Positions 19,137 through 25,742 of a DNA stretch of 64,000 nt are shown here, piece after piece; position 1 is the first letter of the stretch; each line of letters opens with the position of its first letter. Location: contig CALXRI010000012.1 of the NCBI GenBank assembly GCA_944390795.1, positions 1-64,000 on the forward strand, written 5' to 3'. A program made the translations under genes and the position numbers. The notes beneath the pieces are model-generated. The model had not been told where the DNA came from and did no database searches. It worked only from the letters and a program-made list of their open reading frames with translations. This DNA comes from an uncultured Victivallales bacterium. GTDB taxonomy: Bacteria > Verrucomicrobiota > Lentisphaeria > Victivallales > UBA1829.

Positions 19137-20276
19137 ATGAATCTGGCGTTTGTCATCTACCGGTATTTCCCGCACGGCGGACTTCAGCAGGATCTGGAAA
19201 AGATCGTCTGCGAAGCGATTTCGCGCGGGCACAAGGTCACAATTTTCGCCGGGGAATGGCAGGGGCCGCGGATCCCGTTTGCCAATCTTGAAATTCTCAG
19301 GCCGGCAGGTTTGACGAAGTCGGAAAAGATCGCGAGTTTCGAGCTGAAGGCGTTCCGCAGGTTCGCAAGAAAGAAATTTGACGCGGTCATCGGATTCTCG
19401 CTCATGCGCGGTCTGGATGTGTATTTCGCGGGAAACGACGCATTTCCCGTGGAGCTGCCGAAGCCGGGCTTCTGGCACCACCTTCTATCACCGCACTACC
19501 GGATTGAACTCAAGCAGGAACGCGAGGTTTTCGCACCGCATGCGAAAACGAAAATTCTGTACCTGACAGAATCGCAGAAACGCGAATTCATCCGGATCTA
19601 CCATACCCCGGAAGAACGCTTTCATCTGCTCCCGCCGGGAATTTCCGAGGACCGCAGACGTCCCGAGGACCGGAGAAAGCTGGAAAAAATCAGGGAGGAA
19701 ATCCGGAAGGAGTTCCGCCTGGAACAGGACAGTCTCCTGCTGCTGCAGGTCGCATGCAACTTTACGGACCAGGGCGTCGACCGGACCCTTCAGGCGTTTG
19801 CCGCTCTGCCGGACACGCTGGCATCCCAATGTCATCTTCTGATTGCGGGCAGCGACACTTCCGGAGCCCGCCTTGAAAAACTGGCAGGGAGCCTGAAAAT
19901 CTCCGGGCGCACGACATTCGCCGGCTGGCGCGACGATATCGGCAATCTGATGTTTTCCTCCGATCTTCTGCTCTGTCCCGCGCGGGCGCGGTCCGCGGGC
20001 AGCGTTCTGGTCGAAGCCATCGCGGCGGGACTGCCCGCCATCTGCACGGAACGATGCGGTTATTCCACGTTCACGGCGGAAAGCGGCGGAGTGGTCCTCA
20101 CGGAGCCCTTTGCGCAAAATGATCTGAACCACATGCTGGAAGAACTGGTGCTGTCTCCCGATCTGATTGCGGAAATGAAAAGCGCCACGATCTCCTATGC
20201 CGCCGGATTCAATCTCTATCACCGGCAGCGGAAAGCCGTCGACTTCATCGAGGAGAATTTCCCGTGTGCGAAATGA
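19137..20276 (+). CDS. waaG: LPS core glycosyltransferase, WaaG (RfaG) type, GT4
   Basis: A 379-residue GT4 glycosyltransferase closely resembling E. coli WaaG (374 residues), which adds the first glucose to heptose II of the LPS inner core at the cytoplasmic face of the inner membrane. Matching blocks are YRYFPHGGLQQD near the N-terminus, RGLDVYFAGN, LPPGISEDR, LLQVACNFTDQGVDR and EAIAAGLPAICTERCGY. The ATG at 19137 follows GGAG. The next gene, waaP, overlaps its end by 13 bases, the same order as in enterobacterial core loci. No heptosyltransferase is in the window, so the acceptor is inferred. Confidence 0.88.
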   Translation: MNLAFVIYRYFPHGGLQQDLEKIVCEAISRGHKVTIFAGEWQGPRIPFANLEILRPAGLTKSEKIASFELKAFRRFARKKFDAVIGFSLMRGLDVYFAGNDAFPVELPKPGFWHHLLSPHYRIELKQEREVFAPHAKTKILYLTESQKREFIRIYHTPEERFHLLPPGISEDRRRPEDRRKLEKIREEIRKEFRLEQDSLLLLQVACNFTDQGVDRTLQAFAALPDTLASQCHLLIAGSDTSGARLEKLAGSLKISGRTTFAGWRDDIGNLMFSSDLLLCPARARSAGSVLVEAIAAGLPAICTERCGYSTFTAESGGVVLTEPFAQNDLNHMLEELVLSPDLIAEMKSATISYAAGFNLYHRQRKAVDFIEENFPCAK

Positions 20277-21070
20277 TGCTTGACACCCCCTTCAGAGAAT
20301 GCTGGGCGGACCGCGATCCCTTTGCCGAGGCGTTCCGGCTGGACGGAGAAAGTTTCCGCCGGGTCAAAAGCCGCCACACCTTCCGTTTTGAAGCGGAAGG
20401 AAAGGGATATTTCGCCAAACTCCATCACGGATGCGGCTGGAAGGAAATCTTCAAAAACCTTCTTCAGTTCAAACGACCGGTCCTCGGAGCGGACAATGAA
20501 TACCATGCCCTGCTGCATCTGAGACGCATCGGCGTCGACACCATGACGCCCCGCGCCTACGGAATGCGCGGGAAAAATCCGGCCAGGCTCCAGTCCTTCC
20601 TGATTACGGAGGAACTGACCGACGTCATCAGTCTGGAAGACCTGTGCCGCGACTGGAAGGAAAAAACGCCGGAATTCCGCCTCAAATCCGCCCTGATCCG
20701 CAAACTCGGCGGCATGACGGGGAAAATGCACAGAAGCGGACTCAACCACCGCGACTGCTACATCTGCCATTTCCTGCTGAAGAAGGCAACGGCATCGTCT
20801 CCCGATCCGGTTCTTCATGTGATTGACCTTCATCGTGCGGAAATCCGCGGACGCGTGCCCTACCGTTACCTGGTCAAGGACGTCGCGGGGCTTTTCTTCT
20901 CCTCCATGGACACGGGAATCACGTCCCGCGACATTCTGCGGTTCATCCGCGCATACTCCGCGCGACCGCTGCGGCAGGAACTCGCCGCAAACAGAAGATT
21001 CTACAAGGATGTCAGGAAAGCCGCGCGGAAGCTTTACAGAAAAGAATTTTCAAAAGAGGCGCCGCTGTAG
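20264..21070 (+). CDS. waaP: LPS core heptose(I) kinase WaaP (RfaP)
   Basis: A 268-residue protein kinase-like enzyme of almost the same length as E. coli WaaP (265), which phosphorylates heptose I of the LPS core. The match runs end to end, with TFRFEAEGKGYF, KEIFKNLLQFKRPVLGA, NHRDCYICHFLL carrying the catalytic aspartate, and VIDLHRAEIRGRVP. A GTG at 20264 sits 8 bases after GGAG and overlaps the end of waaG by 13 bases; an ATG at 20273 is farther from the ribosome-binding site. Its 3' end overlaps the convergent kinase gene by 37 bases. Confidence 0.92.
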   Translation: MCEMMLDTPFRECWADRDPFAEAFRLDGESFRRVKSRHTFRFEAEGKGYFAKLHHGCGWKEIFKNLLQFKRPVLGADNEYHALLHLRRIGVDTMTPRAYGMRGKNPARLQSFLITEELTDVISLEDLCRDWKEKTPEFRLKSALIRKLGGMTGKMHRSGLNHRDCYICHFLLKKATASSPDPVLHVIDLHRAEIRGRVPYRYLVKDVAGLFFSSMDTGITSRDILRFIRAYSARPLRQELAANRRFYKDVRKAARKLYRKEFSKEAPL

Positions 21071-21810
21071 GCGGGATTGCACGTTTCATACTTCCGGAGA
21101 ACTTCCAGTTTCTGGACGTCGGAAAGTCCGAGCGGCTGGAAGAAGGCTTTTAAATCGGCAACGGCTTTTTCTGCGCGCAGCGCCGAATCGGGAAGAAGCT
21201 TCACGGTGGCAAGGTCAATCCAGACAATCCGCATCTCCTTTCCGGATCCGTGCCAGAGAAAGTTGCGCGGATGCGCGCCGCCGTGGCAATAACCGTTCCG
21301 ATGAAGCTGTGCCAGCATCTCCATCAGTTTCAGACAGAAAACCATCATGTCGGGGGCGCCGTATCCCGGCCCGTCGCAGCCGCGGCAGAAATAAGATCCG
21401 TTGCGCGTGTCCGCGACAAAGCGCGTTATCATGAAACTGGAACTCAGCCACCAGACGGATCTCCGTTCCCCGTAAGCCAGCACCTCGGCCGTCGGAATCC
21501 CCAGATTCCGCACCGTCTGATACCCCTCCGCCTCCCGGCGGGCAAGAGACCCGCGCAGAAAATAACGCAGGAAACGCTGCTCGTAGTAGGATTTGATGAC
21601 CACGGCGCCGGAATACAAGTCAGGCGGGCATGCTGCCTTGTAAACAGATTTGCTCCGGGTTTTCCAAAGCTGCTCGGAGTCAAAATCCGGATGCTCCAGC
21701 AGCCAGCGGAAAGCGTCGCGGAAGTCCTCCCGCACCCAGGTCCAGGAATGAAAGCAGGAGGGATCGGCATTGGGCGATCCGGTGATATGGCAGATACGTG
21801 GCGTAGTCAA
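21034..21810 (-). CDS. Lipopolysaccharide kinase (InaA/KdkA-like) family protein
   Basis: A 258-residue protein of the LPS-kinase branch of the protein-kinase fold. The likely catalytic loop is HRNGYCHGGAHPRNFLW, where the usual HGD is HGG, and the metal-binding aspartate is in VWIDLATVKL. The HGG change could lower activity or shift the base. The start is a TTG at 21810, five bases after a strong AAGGAGG, and there is no early in-frame ATG. It converges on waaP with a 37-base overlap and is divergent from another kinase-like gene at 21996. A role in phosphorylating core sugar (Kdo or heptose) is inferred. Confidence 0.75.
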   Translation of the reverse strand: MTTPRICHITGSPNADPSCFHSWTWVREDFRDAFRWLLEHPDFDSEQLWKTRSKSVYKAACPPDLYSGAVVIKSYYEQRFLRYFLRGSLARREAEGYQTVRNLGIPTAEVLAYGERRSVWWLSSSFMITRFVADTRNGSYFCRGCDGPGYGAPDMMVFCLKLMEMLAQLHRNGYCHGGAHPRNFLWHGSGKEMRIVWIDLATVKLLPDSALRAEKAVADLKAFFQPLGLSDVQKLEVLRKYETCNPAYSGASFENSFL

Positions 21811-21902
21811 GATGTCCTCCTTTTTTCATGCGTCCGGGTCGTGAAAGGCCGCGGACGGAGCATTTACTAATGGCACGCTTTTTGAAAAAATCTAATATGA
21901 TA

Positions 21903-21932
21903 TTGGAAAAAAAGCCTTTTTTATGCTATATT
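21903..21932 (+). promoter_or_regulatory. Predicted promoter for the 21996 kinase gene
   Basis: TTGGAA at 21903-21908 and TATATT at 21927-21932, spacer 18 bases, about 60 bases before the ATG. Confidence 0.5.
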
Positions 21933-21995
21933 CGTCCGTGAAACGGGACCAGGCGCTTTTTCCTGTTCCCGAAAGAAAGATGCGGGAGAGAGAGC

Positions 21996-22736
21996 ATGCT
22001 GCGCGAACTGCTTGTCACGTTAATGGACTGCCGCGGGACGAACGGAAATTACCTGTTCGGGAAAGGACGGTTCGTCCTGCGCGGATTTTCCGCAGACCCC
22101 TCTTTCGAACTGGCGAAATGCACTGTCATCAAGGATTCCAAAACCACCACCACGGGATGCGCGCACGGACTGTTCCTCAAACGGTACAACAGCCGGGGCA
22201 TCTGGCGCACGCTCAAACGCTCGGTCCAGCTGCCGCGCGCCTACGAATGCCTCGCCGCGGCGATCCGGCTCCGGCAGGCGGGAATCGCGACTCCGCTTGT
22301 TCTGCTCGCCTCGCGATATTACCTGATTACGGAAGCCCTGCCGGAAGACACTGTCTTTCTGAACAGAAAGCCGGAACTGGCGGCAGACGCGGCGGACGTC
22401 ATCGCGAAAATGCATGACAGCGGAATCTATCACGGGGACCTCAACCTGCGCAACATCTACTTCCTGGACGGAAAATACGGATTCATCGACCTGGATTCCG
22501 CAAAAATCTTTCCGAAAGGCATTCCGAAGACACTGAGAAGAAGAGATCTGGCGCGTCTCATTTCCTCCTGCGCCATCGAATATCTCTGGCGCGGGAAGCC
22601 GCTCTCCGATGCGGAGCTTGACAGCATGACGGATGCGCTCGCAAGCCGTTACAGGGAAAAAACAGGAATTGATACCGCCGGTCCGGAACTCAGGGCGCGC
22701 ATCCGGTATCTGATCCGCCGGAAGCGTCGACACTGA
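21996..22736 (+). CDS. Lipopolysaccharide kinase InaA-family protein
   Basis: A 246-residue LPS kinase-like protein. The catalytic loop is SGIYHGDLNLRNIYFL with the HGD motif intact, and the magnesium-binding aspartate is in FIDLDSAKIF. The N-terminal lobe has GLFLKRYNSRG, where the lysine probably binds ATP. Together with waaP and the 21034 protein it makes three kinase-fold LPS proteins within 2.5 kb, so several core positions may be phosphorylated. The ATG at 21996 follows GGGAGAGAGAG. A weak hairpin with a U-tract lies just downstream. Confidence 0.8.
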   Translation: MLRELLVTLMDCRGTNGNYLFGKGRFVLRGFSADPSFELAKCTVIKDSKTTTTGCAHGLFLKRYNSRGIWRTLKRSVQLPRAYECLAAAIRLRQAGIATPLVLLASRYYLITEALPEDTVFLNRKPELAADAADVIAKMHDSGIYHGDLNLRNIYFLDGKYGFIDLDSAKIFPKGIPKTLRRRDLARLISSCAIEYLWRGKPLSDAELDSMTDALASRYREKTGIDTAGPELRARIRYLIRRKRRH

Positions 22737-22789: not shown

Positions 22790-22817
22790 TTGACTTCTCC
22801 CCGTTTCAGATTATACT
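22790..22817 (+). promoter_or_regulatory. Predicted promoter for the exported ADH-like protein gene
   Basis: TTGACT at 22790-22795 and TATACT at 22812-22817 with a 16-base spacer, about 55 bases before the ATG at 22873. Confidence 0.6.
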
Positions 22818-22872
22818 ATTGCAGTTTTCTGTAAATTTTCGAATGAAACCCGGAATCGGGAGGAGTGGAATC

Positions 22873-23475
22873 ATGAAAAAATATCTGCTGACCGCATCGG
22901 CCGCCGCACTGCTCGGCATCGCAGTGCTGGCGCTTCACGCCGCCGGAGGAACCTCTGCGGAATGCACGGTGTTTTCCTCGGCAGGAAACGCGGAGGCGGC
23001 AATGGGGGGAAATGACGTGCAGATCGAAGTTCTGCAGTCCCGCGTATGCCGCGACACGCGCAGACATGGCGAGAACTGTTATGTGCAGGAAATCATCGGA
23101 AGGGTTGTTTCCACTGGGAAACAGGCGGGAAATCTGCATGCCGGCGACTGCGTCGGCCTGCGCGGGCGCATCACACCGTGCGGAACGTGCTCCGAATGCA
23201 AAGCTTCGCGCCCCGACGCCTGCCTCAACAGCGGACTGGTCTGCCCGGAAAACTGCCGTCTTCACGCGGGCGCCTGCCGCAACCGGATTGTGACGGCCGG
23301 GGACAATGTTGTCAAAGTCTCCGCGACGGAAAAAGCGGAACAGATCTTTCCCCGTCTCTGCACCGGAACGCACCGCTGCCCGGTGTTCCGATGCCGCGAT
23401 TCGGCAAATGACGCAAGTCTTCCGGGAGGCGTCCGGCACTGCCGCGGACGGAGACACGGCGGACACTGCCGCTGA
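22873..23475 (+). CDS. Exported, truncated zinc alcohol dehydrogenase-like (GroES-domain) protein
   Basis: A 200-residue cysteine-rich protein with a signal peptide (residues about 1-29, MKKYLLTASAAALLGIAVLA). Residues 47-174 align by eye with the N-terminal catalytic domain of cinnamyl-alcohol-dehydrogenase-type MDR enzymes such as YahK: NDVQIEVLQSRVC, EIIGRVVSTG, HAGDCVGLRGRI and the later NRIVTAGDNVVKVS and LCTG segments. The structural zinc cysteines C103, C106, C109 and C117 keep the family spacing exactly. The catalytic-zinc cysteines (C59, C163) remain but the histidine of the GHE motif is missing, and the whole NAD-binding domain is absent. The gene has a good promoter and GGAGG-type ribosome-binding site, so it does not look like random debris, though a decaying pseudogene is the main alternative. 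Confidence 0.7.
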   Translation: MKKYLLTASAAALLGIAVLALHAAGGTSAECTVFSSAGNAEAAMGGNDVQIEVLQSRVCRDTRRHGENCYVQEIIGRVVSTGKQAGNLHAGDCVGLRGRITPCGTCSECKASRPDACLNSGLVCPENCRLHAGACRNRIVTAGDNVVKVSATEKAEQIFPRLCTGTHRCPVFRCRDSANDASLPGGVRHCRGRRHGGHCR

Positions 23476-23552
23476 ACGCTCCGGAACCAGTCCGGCAAAC
23501 ATCGTCCTGCGGCAATGAAACCCTTCACTCCCACAAATTCAAGGATGGAATC

Positions 23553-25742
23553 ATGAATATCTGCGATTTACCGATGGGAAGCGCGCCGGAACCGGTTCGT
23601 TTCGAGCATTTTCCGACCCGATGGCAGGCCTTTCTCTGGCGGAACTGGGAATACGCCCCCGCCGAACGGCTCGCCGAAGTGCTTCAATGCGGGACACGGG
23701 AACTTGCGGAGGCGGCTTCGGCGCTGGGACTTCCTCCGCAGCGGGAACCGAATCCGGAATGGCTGCGCTCCGGCTATCTCACCGTCATCCGGATGAACTG
23801 GCACATTCTGAACCACCGGCAGCTCCTTCAACTCCTGAACTGGACGCCGGAACAGCTGGCCTACACCCTCAAGGAGGAAGATTTTTTCTGGGCAAAGCTG
23901 GGATCGCTCAAACCGGATTGCGGGGAACTGCGCTTCGAGCCGCTGACGCCGGAGCAGGAACGGGCAACCGCGCTCTTCCGGGAACGGGTCCGCAGACATA
24001 TTCCGGCAGAATCGGACATGGAATATCTCGAACAGCCGTTCGCCTTCGCGGAGAAATACCAGGCACGGCCCTTTTCCGGCGGCGCGGAAAAATTCGAGCT
24101 CAACTTCATTCATTCCTATGCCGCCAGCTGCGGGGATATCTTCATTGACATCGAAAATCATGATCCCATTCCGGAAAATCTGCTGGCACAGTATGCCTCG
24201 ATGGGAATCCGGGGCATCTGGATGCACGCGATTCTGTATCTGCTGCATCCCGTCAAGGGATCGGAGGAATTTTCCGCGGGATATGAAACACGTCTCCGCA
24301 ATCTGGCAACTCTCACGGAACGCTGCGAGAAATACGGCGTCGGCATTTATCTGTATCTGAACGAACCGCGCGGGATGCCCTACGCCTTTTATGAAAAGAA
24401 TCCGGACTGGGCCGGAATCGACGTGCCGAAAAACAACATGCGCACGAACTGCACCAGCCGCGGAAAACCGCTGGAGTGGCTGGAGGAGGCATGCGCGGCC
24501 CTCTTCCGGGCGGTCCCGAAACTCGCTGGCGCCTTTATGATTACGATGTCCGAAAATCCTACTCACTGCAATTATGCCTTCGCCGGAAATACATGTCCGC
24601 GCTGCAGGGACCGCGATCCTGCCGATCTGATCGCGGAGGTGGTCGCCGCCGCCGAGCGGGGGATTCACTCCTCCGCGCCGGAGGCAAAACTCCTGGTCTC
24701 CGACTGGGCATGGCGCACGCTGAGGGACGGAAAAAGCAATGCCGAATTCAAAAAGAAGGTCATTGATCGTCTTCCGCGGAATGTCTGGATCATGAGCGTC
24801 AGCGAATGGGGGAAAACAACCTGTGCCGGAGGAATCAGAGGCAGTGTGGTGGATTATTCCATTTCGCAGGTCGGGCCGAGCGCCGAAGCCGTTGCAGTCT
24901 GGCGTCATGCAAAATCGCGCGGGCTCAAAACCGTGGCGAAAATCCAGATGAACAACTCCTGGGAGCTTTCCGCGCTCCCGTATCTGCCGGTTCCCTATCT
25001 TCTGCAGGAACATCTGGACAATCTTTCCAGGGAAGGAGTGGACGGCCTGATGCTCAGCTGGACGCTGGGCGGCTATCCGGGGGGCAATCTGGAACTGCTT
25101 TACAAGAATGTCGAAGAGCTCGCGACGGACAAATTCAGCGTGAACGTCGCAGGAAAAATCTGCGAGGTCTGGCACCTCTTCAGCGACGCCTTCCGCGAGT
25201 TCCCGTTCAACTGCCAGACCATCTACACGGCTCCGATGAACTACGGCTCCCTGAATCTTCTGTATCCGCGCGCAACGGGTTACCAGGCGACCATGATCGG
25301 CTTCCCCTACGACGACCTCGCCACATGGAGAAGCATTTACCCGGAGGACGTTTTCGAGGATCAGTTCCGGAAAGTGACCGAAGGCTGGAAGAACGGTCTT
25401 GATCTTCTGGATGCAGTCCGGGACATGCTGCAGCCGTCGGACCGGACGCCTTACGAAGAGCTCCGCGTCATTGCGGAGGCAGCATACTGTCACCTGCAAA
25501 GCACATATCTGCAGATCCGGTTTGTCCGGCAGCGCAATGCGGGAGACAAAACGGCAATGGCGGCGACCGTCCGCGAGGAGCTCGCCATGGTCCACAAGCT
25601 CCATGAACTGGCGCGGCGCGACTCCCGGATCGGATTCGAGGCAAGCAACCACTATTACTATTCGCTCAACGCTCTGGTTGAAAAAATGGTCAACTGCGAA
25701 GATATCCTGGACCGTCTTGCAACCCGGGCAGGGATGCCATGA
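23553..25742 (+). CDS. Uncharacterised TIM-barrel, glycoside-hydrolase-like protein
   Basis: A 729-residue cytosolic protein (no signal peptide). I do not recognise a named family. The middle looks like a glycosidase TIM barrel: GIRGIWMHAILYLLHPVKG, YGVGIYLYLNEPRG, then FMITMSENPTH and a CPRC pair in GNTCPRCRDRD that recalls DUF4838-type proteins. The C-terminal part is helical and ends with IGFEASNHYYYSLNALVEK, reminiscent of the helical tails of alpha-glucuronidase-like enzymes. Acidic residues in LNEPRG and TMSENP are candidate catalytic groups. The ATG at 23553 follows AAGGATGG. It lies 77 bases after the exported ADH-like gene and may be cotranscribed with it. Confidence 0.6.
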   Translation: MNICDLPMGSAPEPVRFEHFPTRWQAFLWRNWEYAPAERLAEVLQCGTRELAEAASALGLPPQREPNPEWLRSGYLTVIRMNWHILNHRQLLQLLNWTPEQLAYTLKEEDFFWAKLGSLKPDCGELRFEPLTPEQERATALFRERVRRHIPAESDMEYLEQPFAFAEKYQARPFSGGAEKFELNFIHSYAASCGDIFIDIENHDPIPENLLAQYASMGIRGIWMHAILYLLHPVKGSEEFSAGYETRLRNLATLTERCEKYGVGIYLYLNEPRGMPYAFYEKNPDWAGIDVPKNNMRTNCTSRGKPLEWLEEACAALFRAVPKLAGAFMITMSENPTHCNYAFAGNTCPRCRDRDPADLIAEVVAAAERGIHSSAPEAKLLVSDWAWRTLRDGKSNAEFKKKVIDRLPRNVWIMSVSEWGKTTCAGGIRGSVVDYSISQVGPSAEAVAVWRHAKSRGLKTVAKIQMNNSWELSALPYLPVPYLLQEHLDNLSREGVDGLMLSWTLGGYPGGNLELLYKNVEELATDKFSVNVAGKICEVWHLFSDAFREFPFNCQTIYTAPMNYGSLNLLYPRATGYQATMIGFPYDDLATWRSIYPEDVFEDQFRKVTEGWKNGLDLLDAVRDMLQPSDRTPYEELRVIAEAAYCHLQSTYLQIRFVRQRNAGDKTAMAATVREELAMVHKLHELARRDSRIGFEASNHYYYSLNALVEKMVNCEDILDRLATRAGMP

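Follow-up and report, generated by a model that had tools for sequence, protein, structure and literature searches.

The gene considered here lies on the forward strand of the window (the whole stretch of 64,000 nucleotides that was analysed) and encodes a small, Cys-rich, predicted exported protein derived from cinnamyl alcohol dehydrogenases (CADs), referred to below as the short protein (Table 1). A glycosyltransferase and three Kdo/WaaP-type kinases lie upstream of it, and a 729-aa protein downstream. The three kinase genes are consecutive, on alternating strands and preceded by the group 1 glycosyltransferase (20264-22736), in an arrangement like that of an LPS-core cluster; the 729-aa protein (23553-25742) has no Pfam match. 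The promoter and ribosome-binding site of the original prediction are both present. The promoter matches 10 of 12 consensus positions, with 0.1 sites expected by shuffling, and promoter-like sites (8-10 of 12 matches) lie upstream of all six genes of the family described below, their register being less certain in G027 and G133. With a promoter match of its own, the gene appears to be transcribed alone.

The N-terminus, MKKYLLTASAAALLGIAVLALHAAGG, resembles a Sec signal peptide in its KK, hydrophobic core and Ala-rich end, in agreement with the signal peptide originally proposed. The same n-region/h-region pattern was recognized in all six family members by inspection and a hydropathy rule, and on this pattern the protein is apparently exported. 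The minus strand also holds an open frame across the locus (22816-23502, 228 aa), open likewise across the coding sequence in G002 and G003, of which the gene could be a mere shadow. The antisense frame, however, has no Pfam match and is broken in G001, G027 and G133, while the sense frame is uninterrupted in every member and matches CADs, and this explanation is scarcely worth entertaining.

Table 1. Positions of the gene, its expression signals and the features of its product.
Feature	Position in the window	Strand	Basis and remarks
Sigma-70-like promoter, TTGACT-16 nt-TATACT	22790..22817	+	Consensus scan; promoter-like sites at orthologues
Ribosome-binding site, GGGAGGAG	22858..22865	+	Direct sequence reading; 7 nt ahead of ATG
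Coding sequence, ATG to TGA, 200 aa	22873..23475	+	Translation, orthologues, dN/dS
Signal-peptide-like N-terminus, residues 1-25	22873..22947	+	Sequence inspection, hydropathy heuristic; similar in orthologues
CAD-like N-terminal (ADH_N/GroES-like) region, residues 30-166	22960..23370	+	Pfam, PDB phmmer, CAD alignment, shuffled control
C59 ('CHSD'), counterpart of the first catalytic-zinc Cys	23047..23049	+	Alignments; invariant
Q72, replacing the catalytic-zinc His (GHE to QE)	23086..23088	+	Alignments; invariant, 6/6
C103-x2-C106-x2-C109-x7-C117, structural-zinc motif	23179..23223	+	Alignments; invariant
C124-x3-C128-x2-H131-x3-C135, new cluster missing from CADs	23242..23277	+	Alignment; Cys invariant, H131 in 5/6
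C163 (third catalytic-zinc ligand of CADs, 'PLLCAG'), then new invariant C169 and C174	23359..23394	+	Alignment
His/Arg/Cys tail ending -HCR, fast-evolving, predicted disordered	23401..23472	+	Alignment; dN; pLDDT <50 for 177-200

Relation to cinnamyl alcohol dehydrogenases

The Pfam profile ADH_N (PF08240) matches residues 68-150 of the short protein (E 3.1e-7; 31 bits vs. a cut-off of 23.5 bits), over profile positions 34-103 of 104 only, and the best PDB sequence relatives found by phmmer, namely tetrahydroalstonine synthase, the H. pylori CAD/mannitol dehydrogenase and YahK, align with residues ~32-166, bearing out the alignment to the N-terminal GroES-like domain of MDR enzymes that had been proposed. 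Cys content as the cause of a chance match was considered and rejected: with a control HMM built from 28 CAD N-terminal domains the window protein scored 44.2 bits and its orthologues 27-49 bits, while 1000 shuffles with every Cys fixed reached at most 11.7 bits and reversed sequences fell below zero (-2.5 bits for the window protein). Since Cys-preserving shuffles and reversals lose the score, the similarity to CADs exceeds mere cysteine spacing, and the homology of the short protein to these enzymes is supported. CADs, YahK and tetrahydroalstonine synthase (MDR; PDB 3two, 1uuf, 5fi3, 5vkt) have the N-terminal ADH_N region in common with it, at ~20-25% identity over ~140 residues, and are its best matches both by sequence and by Foldseek, but they are complete oxidoreductases with a cofactor domain, which the short protein lacks.

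The missing cofactor domain had been recognized at the outset. No Rossmann NAD(P)-binding domain (ADH_zinc_N, GxGGxG) is found in the 200-aa protein, which stops 37 residues past the counterpart of the CAD 'LLCAG' cysteine and is also devoid of the C-terminal portion of the CAD catalytic domain. A frameshifted Rossmann remainder downstream was considered and rejected, as the sense frame at 23306-23518 has no Pfam match and all six members of the family end in -HCR. The catalytic zinc triad Cys-His-Cys is incomplete: C59 and C163 are kept, and the His, already reported as lost, is Gln in all six members. The residue that follows, E73, is invariant across the family like C59 and C163, and in the CAD alignment ~9-14 residues are missing from the loop that connects C59 with Q72. 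With no cofactor domain, no catalytic His and a shortened loop, the parental dehydrogenase chemistry is not expected. The invariance of C59, E73 and C163 would suit a new small zinc enzyme or small-molecule binder that reuses the remaining catalytic cleft; nonetheless, these same losses, which include most of the loop after C59, together with the finding that no enzyme family besides MDR matched the short protein, make this improbable.

AlphaFold2 was run with the 6 family sequences and with 16 sequences, the second alignment including CADs. With few sequences in both, mean pLDDT was 68 and 69, respectively, reaching ~85-92 over the beta strands, with values below 50 prevailing in the signal peptide and the tail (177-200). 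The best Foldseek matches listed were MDR enzymes, CADs among them (best E 1e-5 to 2e-6, probability 1.0), yet both models match CADs locally only, with an rmsd of mostly 10-12 Å and a TM of ~0.34, and adding CADs to the alignment did not improve the superposition. The structural comparison with MDR enzymes that had been suggested as a check gave local similarity with poor superposition, and the predicted models do not support the persistence of an unchanged GroES-like barrel in the short protein.

Conservation and origin of the family

Missing orthologues, neutral substitution rates or premature stops had been named as grounds for abandoning the original prediction. Five full-length orthologues, 44-83% identical, were found, and the family is distributed across two genera that belong to different families. 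Its six members are 193-201 aa long, no internal stop occurs in any of them, and dN/dS for the closest pair is 0.28 (NG86) or 0.23 (YN00). Substitutions are concentrated at third codon positions (p = 2e-5), and the C-terminal 35 residues evolve fastest (dN 0.35 over residues 166-200). The gene is maintained under purifying selection and is not decaying. A decaying pseudogene fragment, the alternative raised along with the original prediction, would agree with the truncation of an enzyme and with a coding score that is low for the length (20 vs. ~70-120 in neighbours of similar length), but six members of conserved length from two families, with a common end, no stops, a dN/dS of ~0.25 and invariant Cys leave it a nearly negligible chance, and it was rejected.

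The gene is present in all four genomes examined of the window's genus (g1), the other three products being 83, 55, and 51% identical to the window protein, and the two orthologues in another genus of another family (g13) share 49 and 44% identity with it. Overall, 6 of the 198 genomes examined from the class carry the gene, and further matches in a sample of 388 genomes of the phylum lie only inside full-length dehydrogenases. A mobile or viral origin was considered and rejected, with no plasmid match and no relative among viral contigs. In the open-access literature, nothing of relevance was found on CAD proteins that are exported or reduced to the GroES domain.

N-termini resembling signal peptides are also found on full-length CADs, both in the window's genome (G000:C44:10830-11963) and across several families of the phylum. 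A tree was built on N-terminal domains trimmed of most of their signal peptide. In it, the short proteins group as a single clade of six (100/100) placed among these exported CADs, with 99/98 at the node joining it to those of Sec type and a very long stem of 3.7 changes per column. AU tests of sisterhood to the exported CADs instead of nesting gave p values of 0.27 (eight Sec-type rows) and 0.09 (all nine), and the short family may therefore be their sister rather than nested inside them. As the short clade falls among exported full-length CADs, export is less likely to be a new acquisition of the domain; judging from the tree, the family probably descends from an already exported CAD, and export most likely preceded the loss of enzyme parts. 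An exported, repurposed zinc-binding domain had been regarded as new. Its repurposing, conservation, apparent export and lack of a Rossmann domain stand, while export itself is probably not the novelty, since exported CADs group with the family.

The nearest group in the tree (G000:C44:10830-11963, L011, L012, L017) has in common with the short family a signal-peptide-like N-terminus, the motif G-x-(N/K)-D-(V/I)-x-IE, the structural Cys4 and the equivalents of C59 and C163. These exported CADs retain the catalytic His and a full Rossmann domain over ~380 aa, whereas the short family lacks both and differs further in the shortened loop and six additional invariant Cys. Membership in the same protein group, and the occurrence of a full-length exported CAD in the window's genome and G001, would be consistent with a regulatory or decoy subunit that dimerises with the enzyme or competes with it for zinc or substrate. 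Four genomes (G002, G003, G027 and G133), however, have the short protein and no close homologue of the exported CAD. In the window's genome that CAD sits on a contig other than that of the short gene. A CAD from another genus (G024) shares 99% identity with it, which suggests a recent transfer or a binning artefact. Such a subunit is thus very improbable. The same CAD gene (L002, L101) adjoins a likely exported flavodoxin-CMD-cupin fusion (L101:9264-10808).

Cysteines, metals and disulfides

Twelve Cys are invariant in the family. Four are those of the structural zinc site, intact and at the exact spacing originally described, two are C59 and C163, and six are new (124, 128, 135, 169, 174, 199). 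The retention of C59 and C163, the six further invariant Cys and the His/Cys tail ending -HCR were absent from the earlier reading. The window protein carries 16 Cys after residue 30 and, at ~8% Cys, ranks first among the ~50 predicted exported proteins of a 455-kb genome sample, whose mean is 1.2%. High Cys, some His and small size are typical of Cys-rich metal-thiolate proteins such as bacterial metallothioneins, and are found in the short protein as well. No sequence relation to bacterial metallothioneins was found, and the short protein is unlike them in its apparent export and in having a dehydrogenase domain as its basis, its metal binding being putative.

In this gutted zinc alcohol dehydrogenase an enzymatic role has probably given way to putative metal binding, and the explanation we favor, tentatively and at somewhat less than even chances, is that of a non-enzymatic, predicted periplasmic metal-thiolate protein. 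Its ancestor was a cinnamyl-alcohol-dehydrogenase-like MDR enzyme, probably exported by a Sec-type signal. The C-terminal part of its catalytic domain disappeared along with the NAD(P)-binding domain, the loop following the first catalytic Cys became shorter and the catalytic His was exchanged for Gln, while the lineage retained the four structural-zinc and two catalytic-site Cys and fixed six more. The old structural site would hold one zinc, sites formed from C59/C163/C169/C174 and C124/C128/H131/C135 could bind one or more metals (zinc or another thiophilic metal), and the His/Cys tail may serve as a loose extra ligand. The role might be metal buffering or storage, or the metal might hold the small scaffold together. 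In a small, lineage-restricted and conserved family of a few Lentisphaerota/Victivallales, a putative metal-binding role is plausible.

The extra Cys could instead pair to stabilise a small remodelled fold, giving a disulfide-rich exported structural or envelope protein with metal at most in the old Cys4. Lineage-specific Cys indeed change in apparent pairs, C69 and C93 being present in all four g1 members and C97/98 and C145 in both g13 members, pairs that could equally be disulfides, and the number of Cys after residue 30 is even in four of the six members. Nonetheless, the count is 15 in two members, and in G133 C70 occurs without C93. Bacteria that make disulfides usually carry DsbA/DsbB/VKOR and a surplus of even Cys numbers in their exported proteins (PMC12453122). 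The genome, which is 95% complete, yielded no homologue of DsbA, DsbB or VKOR in searches that did detect matches in control genomes, and exported proteins with 1-11 Cys in the 455-kb sample showed no clear even surplus (23 even, 19 odd). Thiolates are more plausible than disulfides because no DsbA, DsbB or VKOR was found, although at 95% completeness an unknown oxidant may still exist. The lack of Dsb/VKOR and of an even surplus, together with the two members with 15 Cys, led us to favor the metal-thiolate protein over the disulfide-rich one, which we consider rather unlikely.

A more far-reaching version of the metal-thiolate reading, possible but doubtful, is that of an undescribed exported metal-binding family that arose inside one Lentisphaerota order from a gutted, exported zinc dehydrogenase. 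Multiplication of the zinc-site Cys would then have produced a metallothionein-like buffer for several metals in the periplasm of organisms that have no recognisable disulfide-forming system. The family offers a traceable case of an enzyme becoming a non-enzyme, in which the parent, the lost parts and the kept and gained ligands can be read from living relatives, and it raises the question of how a Cys-rich protein is handled outside the cytoplasm where no Dsb or VKOR homologue is found.

No link to metal-transport or metal-regulated genes was found, nor any conserved neighbour related to metals. The gene order around the short gene is common to G002 and partly to G003, and not to G001, G027 and G133; the 729-aa protein lies downstream in G002 and G003 too. 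Since the LPS-kinase neighbourhood occurs, among orthologues, only in these two genomes, synteny revealed no conserved partner gene across the six family loci, and neighbourhoods that differ between lineages give no function. The two g13 members adjoin a glycoside-hydrolase-like gene, and the G001 orthologue has an aldo/keto reductase on one side and a ddl-like gene on the other (all named by eye, not by Pfam). The aldo/keto reductase, directly upstream of the G001 orthologue (L022:8071-9309), shows a Tat-like N-terminus (RREFLK) and, at its C-terminal end, a 4Fe-4S domain.
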